Shown: positions 4,668 through 60,927 of the stretch, in pieces
How the letters are laid out: the number at the start of each line of letters is the position of its first letter
Numbering within the stretch: position 1 is the first letter of the stretch
Assembly: GCA_958510825.1 (NCBI GenBank)
Contig: OY294046.1
Span: 4,774,001 to 4,838,000, forward strand
Source of the DNA: Brachypterus glaber
Taxonomy: Eukaryota; Arthropoda; Insecta; Coleoptera; Kateretidae
Reading direction: 5' to 3'
DNA length: 64,000 bases
The notes under the pieces: model-generated
Database searches by the model: none
Told to the model about the DNA's origin: nothing
What the model saw: the letters and a program-made list of their open reading frames with translations, nothing else
Position numbers and translations under genes: made by a program

Positions 4668-5268
4668 TTTTAATTTGGTTCTGTCAGTTATCTGACATTT
4701 TTCCATAAAGGACCGCAAAAGTACTTTGGTGGGCTGCAGCCCGCCAACGTAAAACAAAACACAAACTCTTAACAAAAGTATCACTTTTAACTTAACATTT
4801 CTAACCGAGAAATGTCACTTTGGAATACAAGCGAATAAAAAAATATTTAAGACAAAAATACCAATTACTTAATTTACTTAATGAGATCTACTTTCAGCTA
4901 TTTTTTGTTTGGATTTACAAAATGAATCTTTTATTTTTTTGTTCCTATTTGAGTCCTCACTTTAAAACGGGCAGACACACTGAAACTTTTTTGACACCAA
5001 AAAAAGTTTTTCCTCATTTTCCCGTCGTTTGATGAAATTTGAAACTGATTTTTTAATTTTTTAGTTAAAAAAGCTGCAAATAGACCCATTTCACCCAAGC
5101 GTTAATATTTACCTCAGCTGCACAACCATTATTCGCCGTGTGTGTACACGGATTTGGTCCACAATTGGTACAGGATACTATATCGTTGGCGGTGGAATCC
5201 CTTCTTTTCTTATCACCCTAGGAAAAGCAGAAAAAAATCTTTAAGGCTTTATATAAAGACTTCAAAAT
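4668..5268. other. Non-coding stretch
   Basis: No recognised element. The short open frames at 4602-4784 and 4820-5032 lack motifs. Confidence 0.4.
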
Positions 5269-27343: not shown

Positions 27344-27764
27344 CACGGAAAGAAATTAGTGGGCTCTGCGCTATACATTATAAGATATTTGGTAACAGTG
27401 GCAAATTATAGTGATTTAAGCTATAGATTATAAGGGACACAATAACTAATAATGTTAAAAATAAATTGGAAACGATTATATATATTACAGACACGATTAT
27501 ATTTATTACAGGCACTATTATAAATTTACAGAAATTTTATTATATTATAAAAATTATTAGCACGGACAATAATTAAATCTATTTAAGCTATAAATGCCAT
27601 ACTTGTTATATTTTATTATTCACTAAACAATTAAAGTATTTCATATAAATTTTTACACTGACTGCCATAATTGTAAGAGAAAGCCTTGTATTTATATAAT
27701 AAGCGATTATAATTTGCTTGGTATGTGTGTTATAGCGCTCCTAGCTATATTTTTTTTTTCCGTG
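27344..27764 (-). mobile_element. Family N element, copy 1
   Basis: 421 bp. The ends CACGGAAAGAAATT and ...TTTCCGTG are inverted, flanked on both sides by TA (27342-27343 and 27765-27766). It is nearly identical by eye to the inverted copy at 60472-60895. Non-coding, interior very AT-rich. Confidence 0.9.
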
Positions 27765-32582: not shown

Positions 32583-33365
32583 TTATGACGAGTTGTGGTT
32601 ATTCACCCGTGACGAGGTTTTTCCTATCAAAGACTTCCATATTGCAGGTAAATGGTAACCAGTGTCCCGATTGATATTGTTAGGATGCTTGATGATTTCT
32701 ATCGATTCCCGTATCTTCCTTGGCATTTTTCTGTTTTCTGTTAATATTTGTTTTGTTTCAGACAAATTGATTTTATGACCTGTTTCATGTACATGTTCGG
32801 CTACTGCCGATAAGGAAATTTGTTTCTTTCGTATATTGCGCTCATGCTCTTGAAGTCTTGTAGAAATTTTTCTCTTAGTTTCACCTATGTAAACCGTACC
32901 ACAGGAGCAGGGTATTTTATATACGCCTTCTGAGCTCAGGGGTATTTTGTCTTTTGTTGAAGTCAAACATTGACCTAATTTTTGGTTGGACCGAAATATA
33001 GGCTTAATATTTGACTTCTTCAAAAGTTTACCTATTTTATCCGTGATACCGCTTACATAGGGAAGTATAACTTGTGTCTGTCTGTCATTGTCACTATTAT
33101 CCTGTTGTTTGGGTCTGGGATTTCTGTATTTGTATATGGTCTTATTAATGTCTTTTTTGGTATAACCGTTCATGGTCAAGGCTTTGGTTAGTTTAAGGAG
33201 TTCTGTGTCTAGGGAATTCTTGTCTGAAATCATGAAAGCCCTATGAACAAGTGAATTAACTACCGAGCGTTTTTGAGAGGGATGGTGATGTGAAAATATG
33301 GAAGTCTTTGATAGGAAAAACCTCGTCACGGGTGAATAACCACAACTCGTCATAAATAGTGACAC
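32583..33365 (-). CDS. Penelope-like element protein, C-terminal part with GIY-YIG endonuclease
   Basis: The 260-codon frame is intact but represents only the end of a Penelope-like polyprotein. Residues 1-25 derive from the inverted terminal copy and are not native. Residues about 26-45 (HHHPSQKRSVVNSLVHRAF) match the region that follows the reverse-transcriptase catalytic core. A basic linker precedes the GIY-YIG nuclease at about 145-185: GVYKIPCSCGTVYIGETKRK supplies the GVY and YIG strands and the CxC pair, followed by RLQEHERN and later HVHETGH, which complete the Cys/His zinc-binding pattern of this family. The tail DTGYHLPAIWKSLI resembles the family's usual C terminus. The nuclease nicks target DNA for retrotransposition. 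With no polymerase the copy cannot move itself. The start codon is only the first Met of the frame. Confidence 0.88.
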   Translation of the reverse strand: MSLFMTSCGYSPVTRFFLSKTSIFSHHHPSQKRSVVNSLVHRAFMISDKNSLDTELLKLTKALTMNGYTKKDINKTIYKYRNPRPKQQDNSDNDRQTQVILPYVSGITDKIGKLLKKSNIKPIFRSNQKLGQCLTSTKDKIPLSSEGVYKIPCSCGTVYIGETKRKISTRLQEHERNIRKKQISLSAVAEHVHETGHKINLSETKQILTENRKMPRKIRESIEIIKHPNNINRDTGYHLPAIWKSLIGKTSSRVNNHNSS

Positions 33366-33482
33366 AAGTTGATTCGAAACTTAGTTTCAGATTAATCCCT
33401 GAAGATGTCTCTAGTAGTAAGAGACGAAACGTCGGAAAGTGAAAATCCATTAACACGGTCTAAACCCGAAAGTGAAAGTTCT

Positions 33483-36943: not shown

Positions 36944-37354
36944 TTTTTTAAGGTATAGTTATTTTAAACCTTCCCGCTTGTAAACAATCTCGAAATTACC
37001 ATAGCAACGTAAGATACGCATGCGTCGTGAGCGAAATAACTAGGCCCAATTGACACAACCGTAAAACGTTGACGTGCCATTAACGAGAACAAAACAATGG
37101 TTTATTCCTCTCAATTATTGGAATAAAAGCGATTTTATAAGCAAATTTTGTTTCTACAGGAATACAAAAGTGTTTTTAGCAACAGCTTTATCAGTTCTCT
37201 TTTTTTACATCAAAACATCATAAAAACAAAGTACCTAAACAAAAATTATAAATTTTGGTTATGTTGACATTCAAAACAAGCCACATGCTTCAGTGTAAAT
37301 CGGACTTTGTGGACTATTTAGCGGCAAATTTAAAATAACTATACCTTAAAAAAA
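36944..37354 (+). mobile_element. Family H MITE, copy 1
   Basis: 411 bp. Inverted ends TTTTTTAAGGTATAGTTATT (about 25 bases each). The interior contains GCATGCGTCGTGAGCG and CCACATGCTTCAGTG. An inverted, closely similar copy is at 53261-53672. Confidence 0.85.
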
Positions 37355-37763
37355 TAACCTTTAGTATGCATATAAAACTTATATTGAATTATACAGTGCG
37401 TGTCTAAAGCCCGCCCCTTTAACTTTTGAACTGCTTAAGATATCAACTTGAAATTTGGATCACATAGATAACATCACCCAAACAATTTCTTGCTAAATAT
37501 TTGATATTTACAGGGGGCACAATGGAATTAGAGGGATAAGAGAAAATTGTTTTGAACGAAAAAGGGAGTCATGAGATACATCATTTTAAAGTTTATTTAG
37601 TTCTTAATAATAATTTAATTCTAATTATCAATATAATTTTGATTTTTTAAATTTTTTTTAAGGTGCTTCATTTTTTAGCTAAAAAATGCAATTTCCTTTG
37701 ATTTTTCCTGAAATGTTATTTATACCATTTAAAATAAGGTTAAAAGTGTAAGTTACGTTTTTA

Positions 37764-50904: not shown

Positions 50905-51263
50905 AGCAGCTTATTTTATTTATAACTACGGTAATTTTTTATTACCTATACACAAAAAAAAAGGATTTCTTGAACCAAGGACAAGTGTATTTCTATGTGT
51001 TCCAAGCCATATTCTCTTATTTCAAGGCTAGAGTTTCTTGAATGAAGAGCACGGGTTTTTGAATGAAGATCCGCGCTCTTCATTCAAGGACATTGGACTT
51101 TGGTTCAAAGAAATGCTAGCCTTGAAACAAGATAATGTGGCTTTGAGCATATCGAATGACAAGTGTCCTTGTTACAAGGAATCGTTTTTTTTTCTGTGTA
51201 AACGAAGCCCACACTTCGTCTTTAGAAGAAAGTAAAAATAGTAAAAAAAATATTTTGACTGAC
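50905..51263 (-). other. Intron or flank downstream of the M3 exon
   Basis: Starts with the donor GTCAGT read on the minus strand at 51263-51258. The next channel exon is not recognisable in 1-51257. Repeated AAGGA/TTCAAG-type words lie at 50960-51170. Confidence 0.5.
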
Positions 51264-51478
51264 CTGCGTGACCGGATTTTCTCCCGGCCTGTACACCACG
51301 TTGTGTAACGGTCGTTTTCTTCCCACGTAGTTTACGCAGACAAATTCGAGGAGTGAAGCGTAAATAAAACACATGCAAACGCCGTCCCAAACATTCATGG
51401 CTGTCAAATTTGAGACAACTGGCAGTGTTGAGCGGAATCCATTTGATGTGGTGAAAAAATTGAGCATTGTCGTGACAC
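51264..51478 (-). CDS. pHCl: pHCl-type ligand-gated chloride channel, exon with M2, M3 and loop start
   Basis: This 215-bp exon (2 bases plus 71 codons) runs from an AG acceptor at 51480-51479 to a GTCAGT donor. It encodes VTTMLNFFTTSNGFRSTLP, the pore-lining M2 helix, then NLTAMNVWDGVCMCFIY and ASLLEFVCVNYVGRKRP, covering the M2-M3 linker and M3, and ends PGENPVTQ at the start of the cytoplasmic loop. Cys-loop subunits form pentameric channels in the plasma membrane. The wording of M2-M3 fits insect pHCl rather than GluCl, HisCl or RDL; that assignment rests on recalled family sequence. It joins the 54214-54366 exon in frame (I-G-V). The first 86 bases are duplicated upstream at 51852, 52314 and 52776. 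M4 is not found in the window. Confidence 0.9.
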
Positions 51479-51546
51479 CTGAAATTTTAAGGTTCATAAT
51501 AGATCTAATAATAAAGTGGTCCATTCTAAAAAAGCCGAAATAAAAA

Positions 51547-51587
51547 CGGAATCCGTTTGATGTGGTGAAAACATTGTGGTGACACCT
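51547..51587 (-). pseudogene. Shortened sub-copy of the M2 exon start
   Basis: Within each full unit there is a second, older piece of the exon start: acceptor AG, GTGTCACCACAATG, then CCACATCAAACGGATTCCG after loss of several bases that shifts the frame. Equivalent pieces are at 52007-52047 and 52469-52509. Confidence 0.75.
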
Positions 51588-51851
51588 CGAATTTTTGGGA
51601 TTTATGATAGATATAAATCCGAAGTGGTTACTTCAAAATAATAATTACAGCCAACTGCAAAACAATAATGCACTGTATAAAATAACAAGCAATAAAATAG
51701 TAAATAAAGTCGAGAAAAATGTCTTATTTTAGGGTAAAACAGTTTAGAACTGGAGTATCAATACATAATGCATTTTTTAATGTATAGTATGGTCTCGCCT
51801 TATTAAGGAATTTAAAAATATTTTTTTTTTACTGAATATATGCCAAAAAGG

Positions 51852-51937
51852 ATTCATAGCTGTCAAATTTGAGACAACTGGCAGTGTTGAGCGGAATCCG
51901 TTTGATGTTGTGAAAAAACTGAGCATTGTCGTGTCAA
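51852..51937 (-). pseudogene. Partial M2 exon copy 1
   Basis: The acceptor AG is retained (51939-51938). 86 coding bases remain open in the original phase and read DTTMLSFFTTSNGFRSTLP and on to LTAMN, with Val-to-Asp and Asn-to-Ser changes in M2. No donor follows at the end of homology. Confidence 0.85.
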
Positions 51938-52313
51938 CTGAAATTTTAAGGGTTCATAATAGATCTAATAATAAAGTGGTCCATTCTAAAAAAGCCGAAA
52001 TAAAAACGGAATCCGTTTAATGTGGTGAAAACATTGTGGTGACACCTCGAATTTTTGGGATTTATGATGGATATAAATCCGAAGTGGTTTCTTCAAAATA
52101 ATAATTACAGCCAACTGCAAAACAATAATGCACTGTATAAAATAACTCAAGCAATAAAATAGTAAATAAAGTCGAGAAAAATGTCTTATTTTAGGGTAAA
52201 ACAGTTTAGAACTGGAGTATCAATACATAATGCATTTTTTAATGTATAGTATGGTCTCGCCTTATTAAGGAATTTAAAAATATTTTTTTTTTACTGAATA
52301 TATGCCAAAAAGG

Positions 52314-52399
52314 ATTCATAGCTGTCAAATTTGAGACAACTGGCAGTGTTGAGCGGAATCCGTTTGATGTTGTGAAAAAACTGAGCATTGTCGTGTCAA
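52314..52399 (-). pseudogene. Partial M2 exon copy 2
   Basis: Same sequence as the copy at 51852-51937, including the Asp and Ser changes, with its acceptor at 52401-52400. Confidence 0.85.
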
Positions 52400-52775
52400 C
52401 TGAAATTTTAAGGGTTCATAATAGATCTAATAATAAAGTGGTCCATTCTAAAAAAGCCGAAATAAAAACGGAATCCGTTTAATGTGGTGAAAACATTGTG
52501 GTGACACCTCGAATTTTTGGGATTTATGATGGATATAAATCCGAAGTGGTTTCTTCAAAATAATAATTACAGCCAACTGCAAAACAATAATGCACTGTAA
52601 AAAATAACTCAAGCAATAAAATAGTAAATAAAGTCGAGAAAAATGTCTTATTTTAGGGTAAAACAGTTTAGAAGTGAAATATCAATACATAATGCCTTTT
52701 TTAATGTATAGTATGGTCTCGCGTTATTAAGGAATTTAAAAATATTGTTTTTTTACTGAATATATGCAAAAAAGA

Positions 52776-52860
52776 ATTCATGGCTGTCAAATTTGAGATA
52801 ACTGGCGGTGTTGAGCGGAATCCGTTTGATGTGGTGAAAAAACTGAGCATTGTCGAGACA
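52776..52860 (-). pseudogene. Partial M2 exon copy 3 (most upstream)
   Basis: Here the acceptor AG is displaced by one base (52862-52861), leaving 85 bases, so use of this site would shift the frame. The M2 wording is otherwise kept. The plus-strand open frame at 52780-52998 is antisense to this copy and not a gene. Confidence 0.8.
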
Positions 52861-52893
52861 CTTGGAATTTTTAGGGTTTATATACATCTAACC

Positions 52894-53260
52894 CGAAAGC
52901 GAGAAAGCTTCACCCCTTCTCCCTCTGAGTCCAGCCCTGGTCGTCGTCGTCATCGTCTTCATTATCGCCGTCGCCTTCGTCGATATGCACTAGGTTAAAA
53001 TATATTAGTAGCACTCCTTTAGTCAATATTTATTTTATGTAGTAAAATAGCGAAGTGAAGATACCGGTATTTTAAAATTTAATCTGACAAGACAGACAGC
53101 GAGAGCGCTAGAGCTTTTTAGTTGATTGATTTATTGCACAATAATTCTAAAAGATGTTTTGAAGGGATGAAGCTTGACATACCTCCAAATGCTTCTTGTA
53201 TTTATTTTTATAACCATACATACTAAAAAAACTAAAATAGTTGCCCCAACTAACGTTTGT
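52894..53260 (-). other. Intron sequence
   Basis: Includes a CGTCGTCGTCATCGTC stretch near 52940. Nothing else recognised. Confidence 0.4.
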
Positions 53261-53672
53261 TTTTTTAAGGTATAGTTATTTTAAATTTGCCGCTAAATAC
53301 TCCACAAAGTCAGATTTACACTGAAGCATGTGGCTTGTTTTGAATGTCAACATAACCAAAATTTATAATTTTTGTTTACTTACTTTGTTTTTATGATATT
53401 TTGATGTAAAAAAAACAGAATTAACAAAGCTGTTGCTAAAAACACTTTTGTATTCCTGTAGAAACAAAATTTACTTAAAAAATCGCTTTTATTCCAATAA
53501 TTTAGAGGAATAAACCATTTTTTTGTTCTCGTTAATGGCACGTCAACATTTTACGGTTGTGTAAATTGGGCCTAGTCATTTCGCTTAGGACGCATGCGTA
53601 TCTTACGTTGCTATGGTAATTTTGAGATTCTTTACAAGCGGGAAGGTTTAAAATAACTATACCTTAAAAAAA
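53261..53672 (-). mobile_element. Family H MITE, copy 2 (intronic)
   Basis: Inverted copy of 36944-37354, with matching 25-base inverted ends and nearly the same length (412 bp). Confidence 0.88.
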
Positions 53673-54213: not shown

Positions 54214-54366
54214 CAATCATAACTCTGGCAGGTACCGCGTTCCATTCCAGCCAAAATGTGATAAACGATGACGTAACCAATATAATTCCCGGAATGAATA
54301 CTGTAGTAAAATAAAAGGCTCTGTCTCTCGTAAATATCAAATCTACTTTCAAACAACTATAGTTAC
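54214..54366 (-). CDS. pHCl: pHCl-type ligand-gated chloride channel, exon with M1 and PAR motif
   Basis: The 153-bp exon (2 bases, 50 codons, 1 base) lies between TTTCAG acceptor and GTAAGT donor. It encodes NYSCLKVDLIFTRDRAFYF, bringing the second Cys of the extra disulphide pair found in glycine/glutamate-type channels, then the M1 helix TTVFIPGIILVTSSFITFW, and after LEWNA the VPAR motif at the inner mouth of the pore that goes with anion selectivity. It continues in phase from SSWRG of the upstream exon and into IGVTT of the downstream exon. In this family M1 is preceded by the ligand-binding domain and the P-A-R sequence marks chloride rather than cation channels. Introns on both sides are large and full of repeats. 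Confidence 0.92.
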
Positions 54367-54751
54367 CTGAAACAAAATAATTATTTTAATAGATTTATCT
54401 AAAAGCGCTCCCGCGGGTGAAATTGGCGCAAACGTATTACAACACGATTCGCCCACCGCAGTAATGATAAGAATCTAGCACATGCGCACTGGTTTGCTTA
54501 TTTTTTTTTTTTTGACAGATGTCAAAAGTGGCTTCCGTTTAGGCAGTTGTAGTTTTATGAAATAGTTTAATTTGAGTGGGGTTACGGTGCGCATCAGGTC
54601 CACAAAAATGAACTATATTTTTGCACTGATTTCTGGTTTTATTACTAAAACTTACTCTTGAATATAATTAGGTGCGGAAATCCAGTTTTTTTGTTAGAAT
54701 ATATAGCAAAAGATTGTTAAAATACTCACGAATTTCTGTTTAATTTTTTTA
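54367..54751 (-). other. Intron sequence
   Basis: No recognised repeat. AAGTGGCTTCCGTTTAGGC near 54527 has no partner here. CATGCGCACTGG near 54482 is mirrored by CAGTGCGCATGCGC near 55280, around the minisatellite, and GATTCGCCCACCGCAGTAAT near 54447 by ATTACTGCGGTGAGTGAATC near 55304, indicating an inverted-ended element of about 0.9 kb. Confidence 0.5.
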
Positions 54752-55032
54752 ATGGGGGCGTTGGTTTACGCTAACAATGGGTTGGTTTGGTAGTTTGCTA
54801 GTTTGGTGTTTTTTTTTTTAATGGGAGGCGTTGGTTTACGTTAACAATGGTTTGGTTTGGTGGTTTGCTGGTTTGGTGTTTTTTTTTTAATGGGAGGCGT
54901 TGGTTTACGTTAACAATGGTTTGGTTTGGTAGTTTGGTGGTTTGGTGTTTTTTTTAATGGGAGGCGTTGGTTTACGTTAATAATGGTTTGGTTTGGTAGT
55001 TTGCTAGTTTGGTGTTTTTTTTTTAATGGGAG
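54752..55032 (-). repeat. Intronic minisatellite
   Basis: Four full units of about 63-68 bases: AATGGGAGGCGTTGGTTTAC, GTTAACAATGGTTTGGTTTGG, TAGTTTGCTAGTTTGGTG, then a T-run of variable length. Units differ at a few bases. It sits within inverted ends near 54447 and 55304. Confidence 0.88.
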
Positions 55033-55566
55033 GCATTTTTCAGATACGATATTTTAGAATTTAGAAGGCGATATATTTTAAGAATCAAATGTTCATTAAT
55101 GAATATTCCGTATTTTTTTTACGAAAATACTATTAAAAGCGAGTACTTTTAGCCAATTAAAAAAAAACTGTTAGCTTGCAAAGAAAAAAGTAGATATTTT
55201 TGTAAAATTCTGCAAAAGAATGTTACATAACCTTAAAATAATTTTTGGCATACGTCAAAAAAAAAACTAAGAAAATCAGTGCGCATGCGCTGGATTCTTC
55301 TCATTACTGCGGTGAGTGAATCGTATTACAACACCAAAAAAAAAAATATAGGAAAGAAGAAGATCTAAAAGCGCTATTTTTTGTACGATAAACCTGTACG
55401 AAAAGTTTAATTCTTCGGCCTAGGTCAAACAGTAAAATAGTCGACTTTCTTTTTTTTTTTTTGAAAATTATTTGGGAAAATGCAATAAAGCATTTACTGT
55501 GAATAGTATATAATAGAATGCGTAGAATTACATATCTTCAAGGCTTGTTATGTTTATGTAACAGTA
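55033..55566 (-). other. Intron sequence
   Basis: Contains the right inverted end of the minisatellite-bearing element near 55280-55325. Otherwise nothing recognised. Confidence 0.45.
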
Positions 55567-58944: not shown

Positions 58945-59962
58945 CTAGAGCACTAGATAGGTACCCTAGTAGAAATTTAACGTTAGAATAACGTTTTTCT
59001 AATGTTAGAAAACTGTATAAAAGTACGTTATAAAATATGTGCAAATGTCCCGCTTTTTAACGTAAGAATCAAACGTTAGTTACAAACGTTAATTTAACGT
59101 TAGATTTTTAAGTTAGAAATACGTTATAAGTACGTTTAATTTATAACTTTCGCGGGCGTGGCCAACTAGGAAATTTCTACCTGCATCATAAAATGGCAGC
59201 TGGAGACAAATTTATTCATATAAATAAATCTTAATATAGTTTAGGAATCATAATAATTTTAAACATAATTTCGTTACATTTATTTATAAAATAGCCATCT
59301 TCTTAGGTGGCCCTAAATATTTTTCGTGTAATATCCTGTTTTACTTCGATAAATACGTTTACCTCTCAGAAAAACATAATATTTAGTTAGTTAATATTTA
59401 TTTATACATTCAGAATCTTAAAATATTTTTTCAATTATAGCACATAGCTGTCTGAAATGAGTATTTTCTACTATAGGTTACGTATTAATAATGGAAATTT
59501 AAAAAATATTTAAAGTTAGAATAAGGTTAGAAAAAGTTAGGAATTTAGTTAGGAAACTAACGCTAGATTTATGTATTTTATAACGTTTTTGTCAAACGTT
59601 AGTTTTTAAGGTTAGATTTATATATTTTATAACGTTTTTATCAAACGTTAGTTTTTAAGGTTAGATTTATATATTTTATAACGTTTTTGTATAACGTTTG
59701 AGACTAAATATAAAAATGTCACTAATCTAATGTCATGTTAAGTTAGATTTATGTACTTTTTTACCAGGGTAGGTTTGTTAGGGTAGGTGGATATTTTGAG
59801 TGGTTCCGCAGGAAAGCACCGACACAGCCACAATTTCAGACCGCAAGAAATATTCCTAGAAACCGAAAATGTCGTTGCTACTGCAAAAACATTGTTGAAA
59901 TTAAGTCTGTTATACACCAAACTACCTACCTACCCTACCAAACCTGCCTATCCAGTGCTCTA
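58945..59962. mobile_element. Family S foldback split by a W1 element
   Basis: TAGAGCACTAGATAGGTA at left and CCTGCCTATCCAGTGCTCTA at right are the inverted ends, as in 40771-40881. The left arm is interrupted at 58964 and resumes at 59770 with TAGGTTTGTTAGGGTAGG. Confidence 0.85.
58964..59769 (-). mobile_element. Family W1 element nested in family S
   Basis: 806 bp, from CCCTAGTAGAAATTTAACG to TTTTTACCAGGG. Flanked by TA on both sides (58962-58963 and 59770-59771); removing the element and one TA restores the family S arm. Longer than 21452-22145 because of extra AACGTTA-word units. Confidence 0.9.
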
Positions 59963-59989: not shown

Positions 59990-60927
59990 AATAGTTTATT
60001 AAAGTACTAGTTTCATAACATACGTTTTTAGAAAACGAGCCGCTTGCGATGAGTTTTCTAAAGTACTAGTTCGCTTAAAACGTGTTATGAAACGAGTGCT
60101 TTACACAATTTTTTCTATTTTGCTCTAAAATTTCGAAAATCTTACATTTAAATTGATGACTGATTTAGCGATTTTTGTTTCGAATTGGCATTACAGTTTT
60201 CGCCATGTTTAAAATTCTAAGAACGAATATTATTTTGATATATTTTATAGTCATTTCTTCTCTTTTCCACTGCAAGTAACCAAGTCACAATTTTAACACG
60301 GTAAAATATAACCTAAACACAAAATTTTGTAGAAAATTAAACTTTAAATCGACGTTCACAATTTCACGGCAAACGTCAAGAGATAGACTTTTGTCTGTTG
60401 CCAACCCAAAAGAAAAAAAAGTAGAGACCTCTTATGGGCCTATAAAAACACGCAAAATGCGTGTGATTATGCACGGAAAAAAAAATTATAGCTAGGAGCG
60501 CTATAACACACATACCAAGCAAATTATAATCGCTTATTATATAAATACAAGGCTTTCTCTTACAATTATGGCAGTAAGTGTAAAAATTTATATGAAATAC
60601 TTTAATTGTTTAGTGAGTAATAAAATATAACAAATAGTATGGCATTTATAGCTTAAATAGATTTAATTATTGTCCGTGCTAATAATTTTTATAATATAAT
60701 AAAATTTCTGTAAATTTATAATAGTGCCTGTAATAAATATAATCGTGTCTGTAATATATATAATCGTTTCCAATTTATTTTTAACATTATTAGTTATTGT
60801 GTCCCTTATAATCTATAGCTTAAATCACTATAATTTGCCACTGTTACCAAATATCTTATAATGTATAGCGCAGAGCCCACCAATTTCTTTCCGTGTGAGC
60901 TTATAAGAGTCGAAAATAGAAAAAAGT
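59990..60927 (-). mobile_element. Family R element split by a family N element
   Basis: Left part 59990-60471, right part 60896-60927. The host hairpin text GATTATGAGCTTATAAGAG is interrupted after GATTATG. Confidence 0.88.
60472..60895 (+). mobile_element. Family N element, copy 2, nested
   Basis: 424 bp, from CACGGAAAAAAAAATTATAG to TTTCTTTCCGTG. Flanked by TG on both sides (60470-60471 and 60896-60897). It is the reverse complement of 27344-27764 with few differences, so the two copies moved recently. Confidence 0.92.

Follow-up and report, generated by a model that had tools for sequence, protein, structure and literature searches.

The analysed window, a stretch of 64,000 nucleotides (C4:4774001-4838000), lies on a 75-Mb contig of a 648-Mb genome in 842 contigs, and on its minus strand it carries exons of pHCl, the gene for the insect pH-sensitive chloride channel, which hosts the tandem array described here. 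A 139-residue join of three exons matched PDB 21wy, 'Ligand-gated ion channel pHCl-A' (residues 1-119, E 7.7e-76), and the joined pHCl exons matched Pfam Neur_chan_memb (4.5e-18). The window and 20 stretches in its neighbourhood together gave ten coding-exon matches. These extend from an N-terminal piece at C4:4873550 as far as M4 at C4:4770777, and the coding span recovered in this way measures about 103 kb. No second form of the M1 exon was found in the genome, where one match was 96% identical and the other three were 31-48% identical. In other insects, a partial Bradysia model (P0023) has two M1 copies and a Bombyx isoform (P0166) lacks M1, and the R/S form of this exon is seen in PDB 21wy. 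Past the linker exon at 5101-5217 the reading frame runs on into VNIN and is followed there by GC, with no GT donor; these four residues make up the 12-bp donor extension described for Aethina pHCl (PMC7017565). Beetle pHCl is alternatively spliced in the TM3-TM4 linker (PMC7017565; PMC2064938). A search for Rfam RNAs gave no match in the window at the gathering threshold.

Upstream of the true M2 exon lie three extra copies of a piece made up of the intron end and the first 86 bases of that exon (Table 1). TRF reported the array as 51393-52891, with a period of 462, 3.3 copies, 96% match and a score of 2760, and a separate repeat search recovered a 300-nt family in which copies 1 and 2 stood at 100% and copy 3 at 86%. 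The units run head-to-tail with one period of 459-462 nt. TRF and the comparison of units thus show the tandem intron-exon copies upstream of the M2 exon that the initial annotation had described, and its coordinates and acceptor positions proved correct when they were re-derived. It had counted three decoy copies; the three large copies are there, but three short fragments, H1 to H3, had been overlooked. One H fragment is present in each unit, with 39 bases of exon start, GAG ahead of the exon and a 7-nt deletion, and all three are frameshifted. About 64 nt past the M2 exon there is also an inverted repeat (50947-51200) with 93-nt arms that are 80% complementary, which at a guess resembles a small non-autonomous transposon. 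Upstream of the array, a 152-bp stretch at 53249-53400 has a 94.7% copy at 37214-37365, and this pair is perhaps a piece of a transposon.

Table 1. Parts of the M2 exon array and the adjoining pHCl exons, in window positions
Feature	Position	Strand	Remarks
pHCl M1 exon (NYSCLKVDLIF...PARVMIG), spliced to M2	54214-54366	-	
True M2 exon, 215 bases	51264-51478	-	bases 1-86 repeated; donor CAG/GTCAGT
Copy 1	51852-51937	-	acceptor kept (TTTCAG/T); 86 nt of exon start; Gly>Val, Val>Asp, Asn>Ser
Copy 2	52314-52399	-	identical to copy 1 across 86 nt
Copy 3, most upstream	52776-52861	-	acceptor AG>AA; Thr>Ser, Asn>Ser, Leu>Pro, Val>Ile
Fragment H1, short exon start	51547-51585	-	GAG precedes exon; 7-nt deletion; frameshift
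Fragment H2, short exon start	52007-52045	-	
Fragment H3, short exon start	52469-52507	-	
Unit U1, 459 nt	51479-51937	-	copy 1, spacer, H1 and intron tail
Unit U2, 462 nt	51938-52399	-	mosaic: as U1 through column 251, as U3 from column 263
Unit U3, 462 nt	52400-52861	-	
Diverged intron tail of copy 3, upstream array end	52862-52892	-	6/30 aligned bases differ from true tail

When the three units were compared in register, U3 and U2 differed at 16 columns, all within columns 1-262, and U2 and U1 at only 6, all within columns 252-448. U3 and U1 are separated by 22 columns; U2 has the U1 state at 15 columns in 1-188 and at column 262, and the U3 state at columns 252-253 (a 2-base indel), 310, 331, 381 and 448, with no private site of its own in the unit alignment. 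The order of the units, namely U3, a hybrid with its 5' part from U1 and its 3' part from U3, U1 and then the true exon, is the one predicted by a single unequal crossover, and the polarity of the hybrid is that of an unequal crossover once one later change is allowed for. This change must be added, in U1 or in U3, because a clean crossover would have left the states at columns 252-253 and at column 262 the other way round. The break would then lie in columns 189-251 or 263-309, within about 52091-52211. Exact identity at an offset of 462 spans 452 nt, so the crossover event looks recent. Conversion is a possible alternative to crossover for U2, and the initial annotation had already read the near-identity of copies 1 and 2, which differ at none of the 86 exon positions, as recent duplication or conversion.

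The earlier history can be read from what the copies share. All three large copies have the Asn to Ser change and AAC in common, which indicates one founder copy. In copy 3, divergence from the true sequence is 6/30 in the intron tail against 5/86 in the exon part (Fisher p 0.033), and in the H fragment it is 7/30 against 2/39 (Fisher p 0.035). This contrast between tail and exon points to first events that would be older than the rest of the array. Constraint on the true exon can explain part of it, and the remainder could come from conversion or from weak selection on the copies. The number of copies is presumably still varying.

The exon parts of copies 1 and 2 each differ from the true exon at 6 positions and that of copy 3 at 5. 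In copies 1 and 2, three of the changes are silent and three replace residues; the initial annotation had noticed Val to Asp and Asn to Ser but overlooked Gly to Val, which arises since the first exon base changes from G to T and the split junction codon GGT thereby becomes GTT. Copy 3 has one silent change beside its four replacements. Its acceptor AG is lost, and the next AG, one base further on, shifts the frame, in agreement with the one-base displacement of the acceptor noted earlier. The two copies nearer to the true exon had been described as keeping both acceptor and open phase. The acceptor is indeed kept, but the frame stops after 53 codons, 24 of which lie beyond the copied exon part; read in the phase aligned with the exon, copy 3 also gives 53 codons. 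Every copy reads into a stop and none has the remainder of the exon.

The replaced residues are nearly invariant among homologues. A homologue search found 344 proteins, of which 120 were listed, and 109 of the latter (all except 11) could be placed ungapped over the start of M2. Among these 109, the residues changed in copies 1 and 2 were found as Val in 109, Gly in 106 and Asn in 104, while the three residues that copy 3 has replaced beside Asn, namely Thr, Leu and Val, were each present in all 109. If only changes confined to copy 1/2 or to copy 3 are counted, there are 5 nonsynonymous and 2 synonymous ones, where a nonsynonymous fraction of 0.72-0.74 is expected under neutrality; seven events are few, and they weakly suggest a match to the expectation without constraint. 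The copies therefore appear, as judged from their codons, to show no sign of constraint at the protein level.

The structure of the copies bears directly on the idea that the whole M2 exon was once duplicated and that the copies are old alternative exons which have since lost their 3' halves to decay. Tandem alternative exons are frequent in insect channel genes, and the Bradysia pHCl model with its two M1 copies would be in line with such an origin. The GluCl exon 3 variants of insects provide a further precedent for alternative channel exons (PMC7017565; PMC2064938). The array resembles the alternative exons of insect cys-loop channels in that part of an exon of a channel gene occurs in tandem copies, but it differs from them in the extent of what was copied. 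An alternative exon would have full length, both splice sites and a frame open throughout; here 86 of 215 bases are present and a stop follows after 53 codons, and because only these 86 bases were copied, no copy can replace the M2 exon. Moreover, homology to the exon ends sharply at exon base 86, where identity drops from 94% to background, and the spacer that follows resembles the rest of the exon no better than shuffled sequence does (231/300 shuffles reached the score for copy 1 and 73/300 that for copy 3; when the first 40 nt of the copy 3 spacer were taken by themselves, a fraction of 0.281 of 1000 shuffles did so). Since the shuffle test found the spacer to be unlike the rest of the exon, whole-exon duplication was rejected, and we give it hardly any credence. 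An artefact of the assembly, at least as regards the number of copies, is about equally improbable. Copies 1 and 2 show no difference in their exon parts or in much of the spacer, but the units are distinct at the columns counted above, the array sits within the 75-Mb contig, and the four exon matches are all on that same contig, with no alternative haplotype contig seen.

The initial annotation had put forward the view that a splicing machinery reading the intron meets decoy M2 starts. On this view the copies would attract the spliceosome and delay or redirect the splicing of M2, with intron detention or a poison isoform and lower channel output as the outcome, which we consider unlikely. With a rough acceptor matrix, the true M2 acceptor scored 7.8, those of copies 1 and 2 (at 51938 and 52400) 5.5, that of copy 3 -0.6 and those of the H fragments 1.1; four other true pHCl acceptors scored 6.4, 6.5, 9.6 and 9.8. 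The acceptors of copies 1 and 2 thus come close to the two lowest of the latter, and their last 25 intronic bases are the same as those of the true acceptor except for one indel, the exon base at +1 being different as well. They are, by these scores, somewhat weak yet plausible and may be usable. On the other hand, they rank only 20th and 21st among the 118 scored AGs of the intron, and the acceptors of copy 3 and of the H fragments are damaged. The top AG of the intron, at 53455, scored 10.0 and surpasses the true M2 acceptor, so the acceptor score by itself says little. By a similarly rough matrix, the strongest donor-like sites that follow the copies scored 3.3-4.3 bits, whereas the M1 donor reached 8.7 and the M2 donor 9.4. 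However, the 5' splice sites of the OGT decoy exon are weak too, and that exon contains a premature stop (PMC12017769), so the weak donors here do not rule out a decoy role. It also speaks for such a role that a stop is found in all copies, that ATTAAA occurs 156 nt into each large copy, and that splicing of the neighbouring exon varies in other insects, with M1 missing in Bombyx and doubled in Bradysia. Against it, the chimeric tail that a decoy would append was found in none of the 25 proteins matching the decoy reading frame, a result that speaks for that protein set only, and the normal continuation of the exon was found in all 25; one 5-letter word of the tail occurred in one (P0039) of 209 proteins, which we take as chance. 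The splice scores neither single out the copies nor exclude them. Even less probable than a plain decoy is an array that acts as a splicing rheostat of variable copy number, in which the acceptor and exonic sequence of each added copy compete with the true M2 acceptor. If that were the case, more units should give less full-length pHCl or more of the truncated subunit. A role in splicing seems unlikely on the sequence evidence, and no finding here calls for one.

Among the closest known systems are the decoy exons of detained introns in OGT, SF3B1 and ARGLU1. The M2 copies are like these in being exon-like, stop-bearing and intronic, in lying upstream of a true acceptor and in having weak donors. 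The decoy exons of the three genes are cassette exons backed by experiments (PMC12017769), whereas the M2 copies are fragments of the next exon and have very weak donor-like sites. A different comparison is offered by minisatellite-like arrays in introns, which arise by partial tandem duplication across an exon-intron boundary and spread by unequal crossing over. Head-to-tail units, near-identical neighbours, a hybrid unit and confinement to one locus are features that the M2 array has in common with them, and it is unlike them in that its unit takes in an acceptor, the start of a pore exon and a nested older fragment of the same M2 exon. A search of the literature, to the extent that its text was available, brought up no array of this kind in pHCl.

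We then considered how unusual the array is in this genome. M2 exon DNA gave four matches genome-wide when the best candidates were scored, all of them at the array, the short H fragments going unreported; the spacer gave three matches at the array and one weak 69-base match on another contig. Words that are short or very common escape these searches, so that small pieces elsewhere may have been overlooked. A transposable element or dispersed satellite was rejected, within this limited sensitivity, as there were no dispersed exon copies and only the one weak spacer match. In the 264 kb around pHCl, TRF found six arrays with a period of at least 150 and at least 2.5 copies, including the M2 array. 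The other five total 7,748 bases, lie within 100 kb of the window and are all outside the 103-kb pHCl coding span, so that the M2 array is the only one inside. Two of the neighbouring arrays are at C4:4917384-4920151 (976 bp x 2.8) and C4:4925370-4927355 (221 bp x 9.0). At an array density of 2.9%, 20 exon ends are expected to meet an array about 0.6 times at random, and a single overlap between exon and array therefore needs no special cause, although arrays may be sparser within the gene itself. This control rests on the one 264-kb stretch around the gene and on two further 10-kb stretches at chosen round coordinates, with 2-copy repeats of 164 bp and 219 bp in one of them and no repeat with a period of at least 50 in the other. 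Long-period arrays are ordinary in this neighbourhood. Partial copies of other pHCl exons were not found for nine of the ten exons in the 264 kb (E 0.01).

We consider it highly probable that the M2 array is a neutral, decaying, locus-specific intronic array which arose by tandem duplication and unequal crossover and by chance takes in the 5' end of the M2 exon of pHCl. Among the readings weighed here this fits best, and the initial annotation had named it as its fallback; the tandem copies and the recent duplication that it reported also stand, while its decoy M2 starts gained no positive support and were not refuted. The array would have formed in three steps, the order of which is deduced. 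Old short duplications of the intron end and exon start would have given copy 3 and fragment H; a duplication of the unit made up of exon start, spacer, H and intron tail would then have produced U3 and U1; and in a recent step, misaligned pairing of U1 and U3 with one unequal crossover would have generated the hybrid U2. The true exon is presumably held by purifying selection, with the copies drifting as fragments that have no function of their own. Should the acceptor of copy 1 or 2 be used on rare occasions, the chain would stop 24 residues past the copied exon start, and nonsense-mediated decay would be probable.

The locus offers a small, clean case in which an intronic array absorbs and multiplies an exon boundary, leaves the true exon unharmed and still shows a readable crossover hybrid. 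If the copy number varies, it would form a natural series for asking what number of near-identical acceptors can be tolerated in one intron. It is also a trap for gene prediction, as protein searches report extra M2 matches here.

Several other repeats and frames were noticed in the window. The intron upstream of the M1 exon contains an array with a 69-bp unit and 4.2 copies (54744-55034), which is flanked by 78-nt inverted repeats that are 85% complementary (54434-54511 and 55257-55334). A 265-aa open frame at 32583-33380 gave no Pfam match; its VYIGETKRKISTRLQEH stretch presumably recalls the GIY-YIG end of Penelope-like elements. Another tandem array, with a 49-bp unit and 2.8 copies, lies at 59564-59698. 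The same 21-bp tandem repeat occurs in opposite orientation at 27472-27532 and 60707-60767, 33 kb apart, and the peptides flanking the two match, which suggests that they are two copies of one element.
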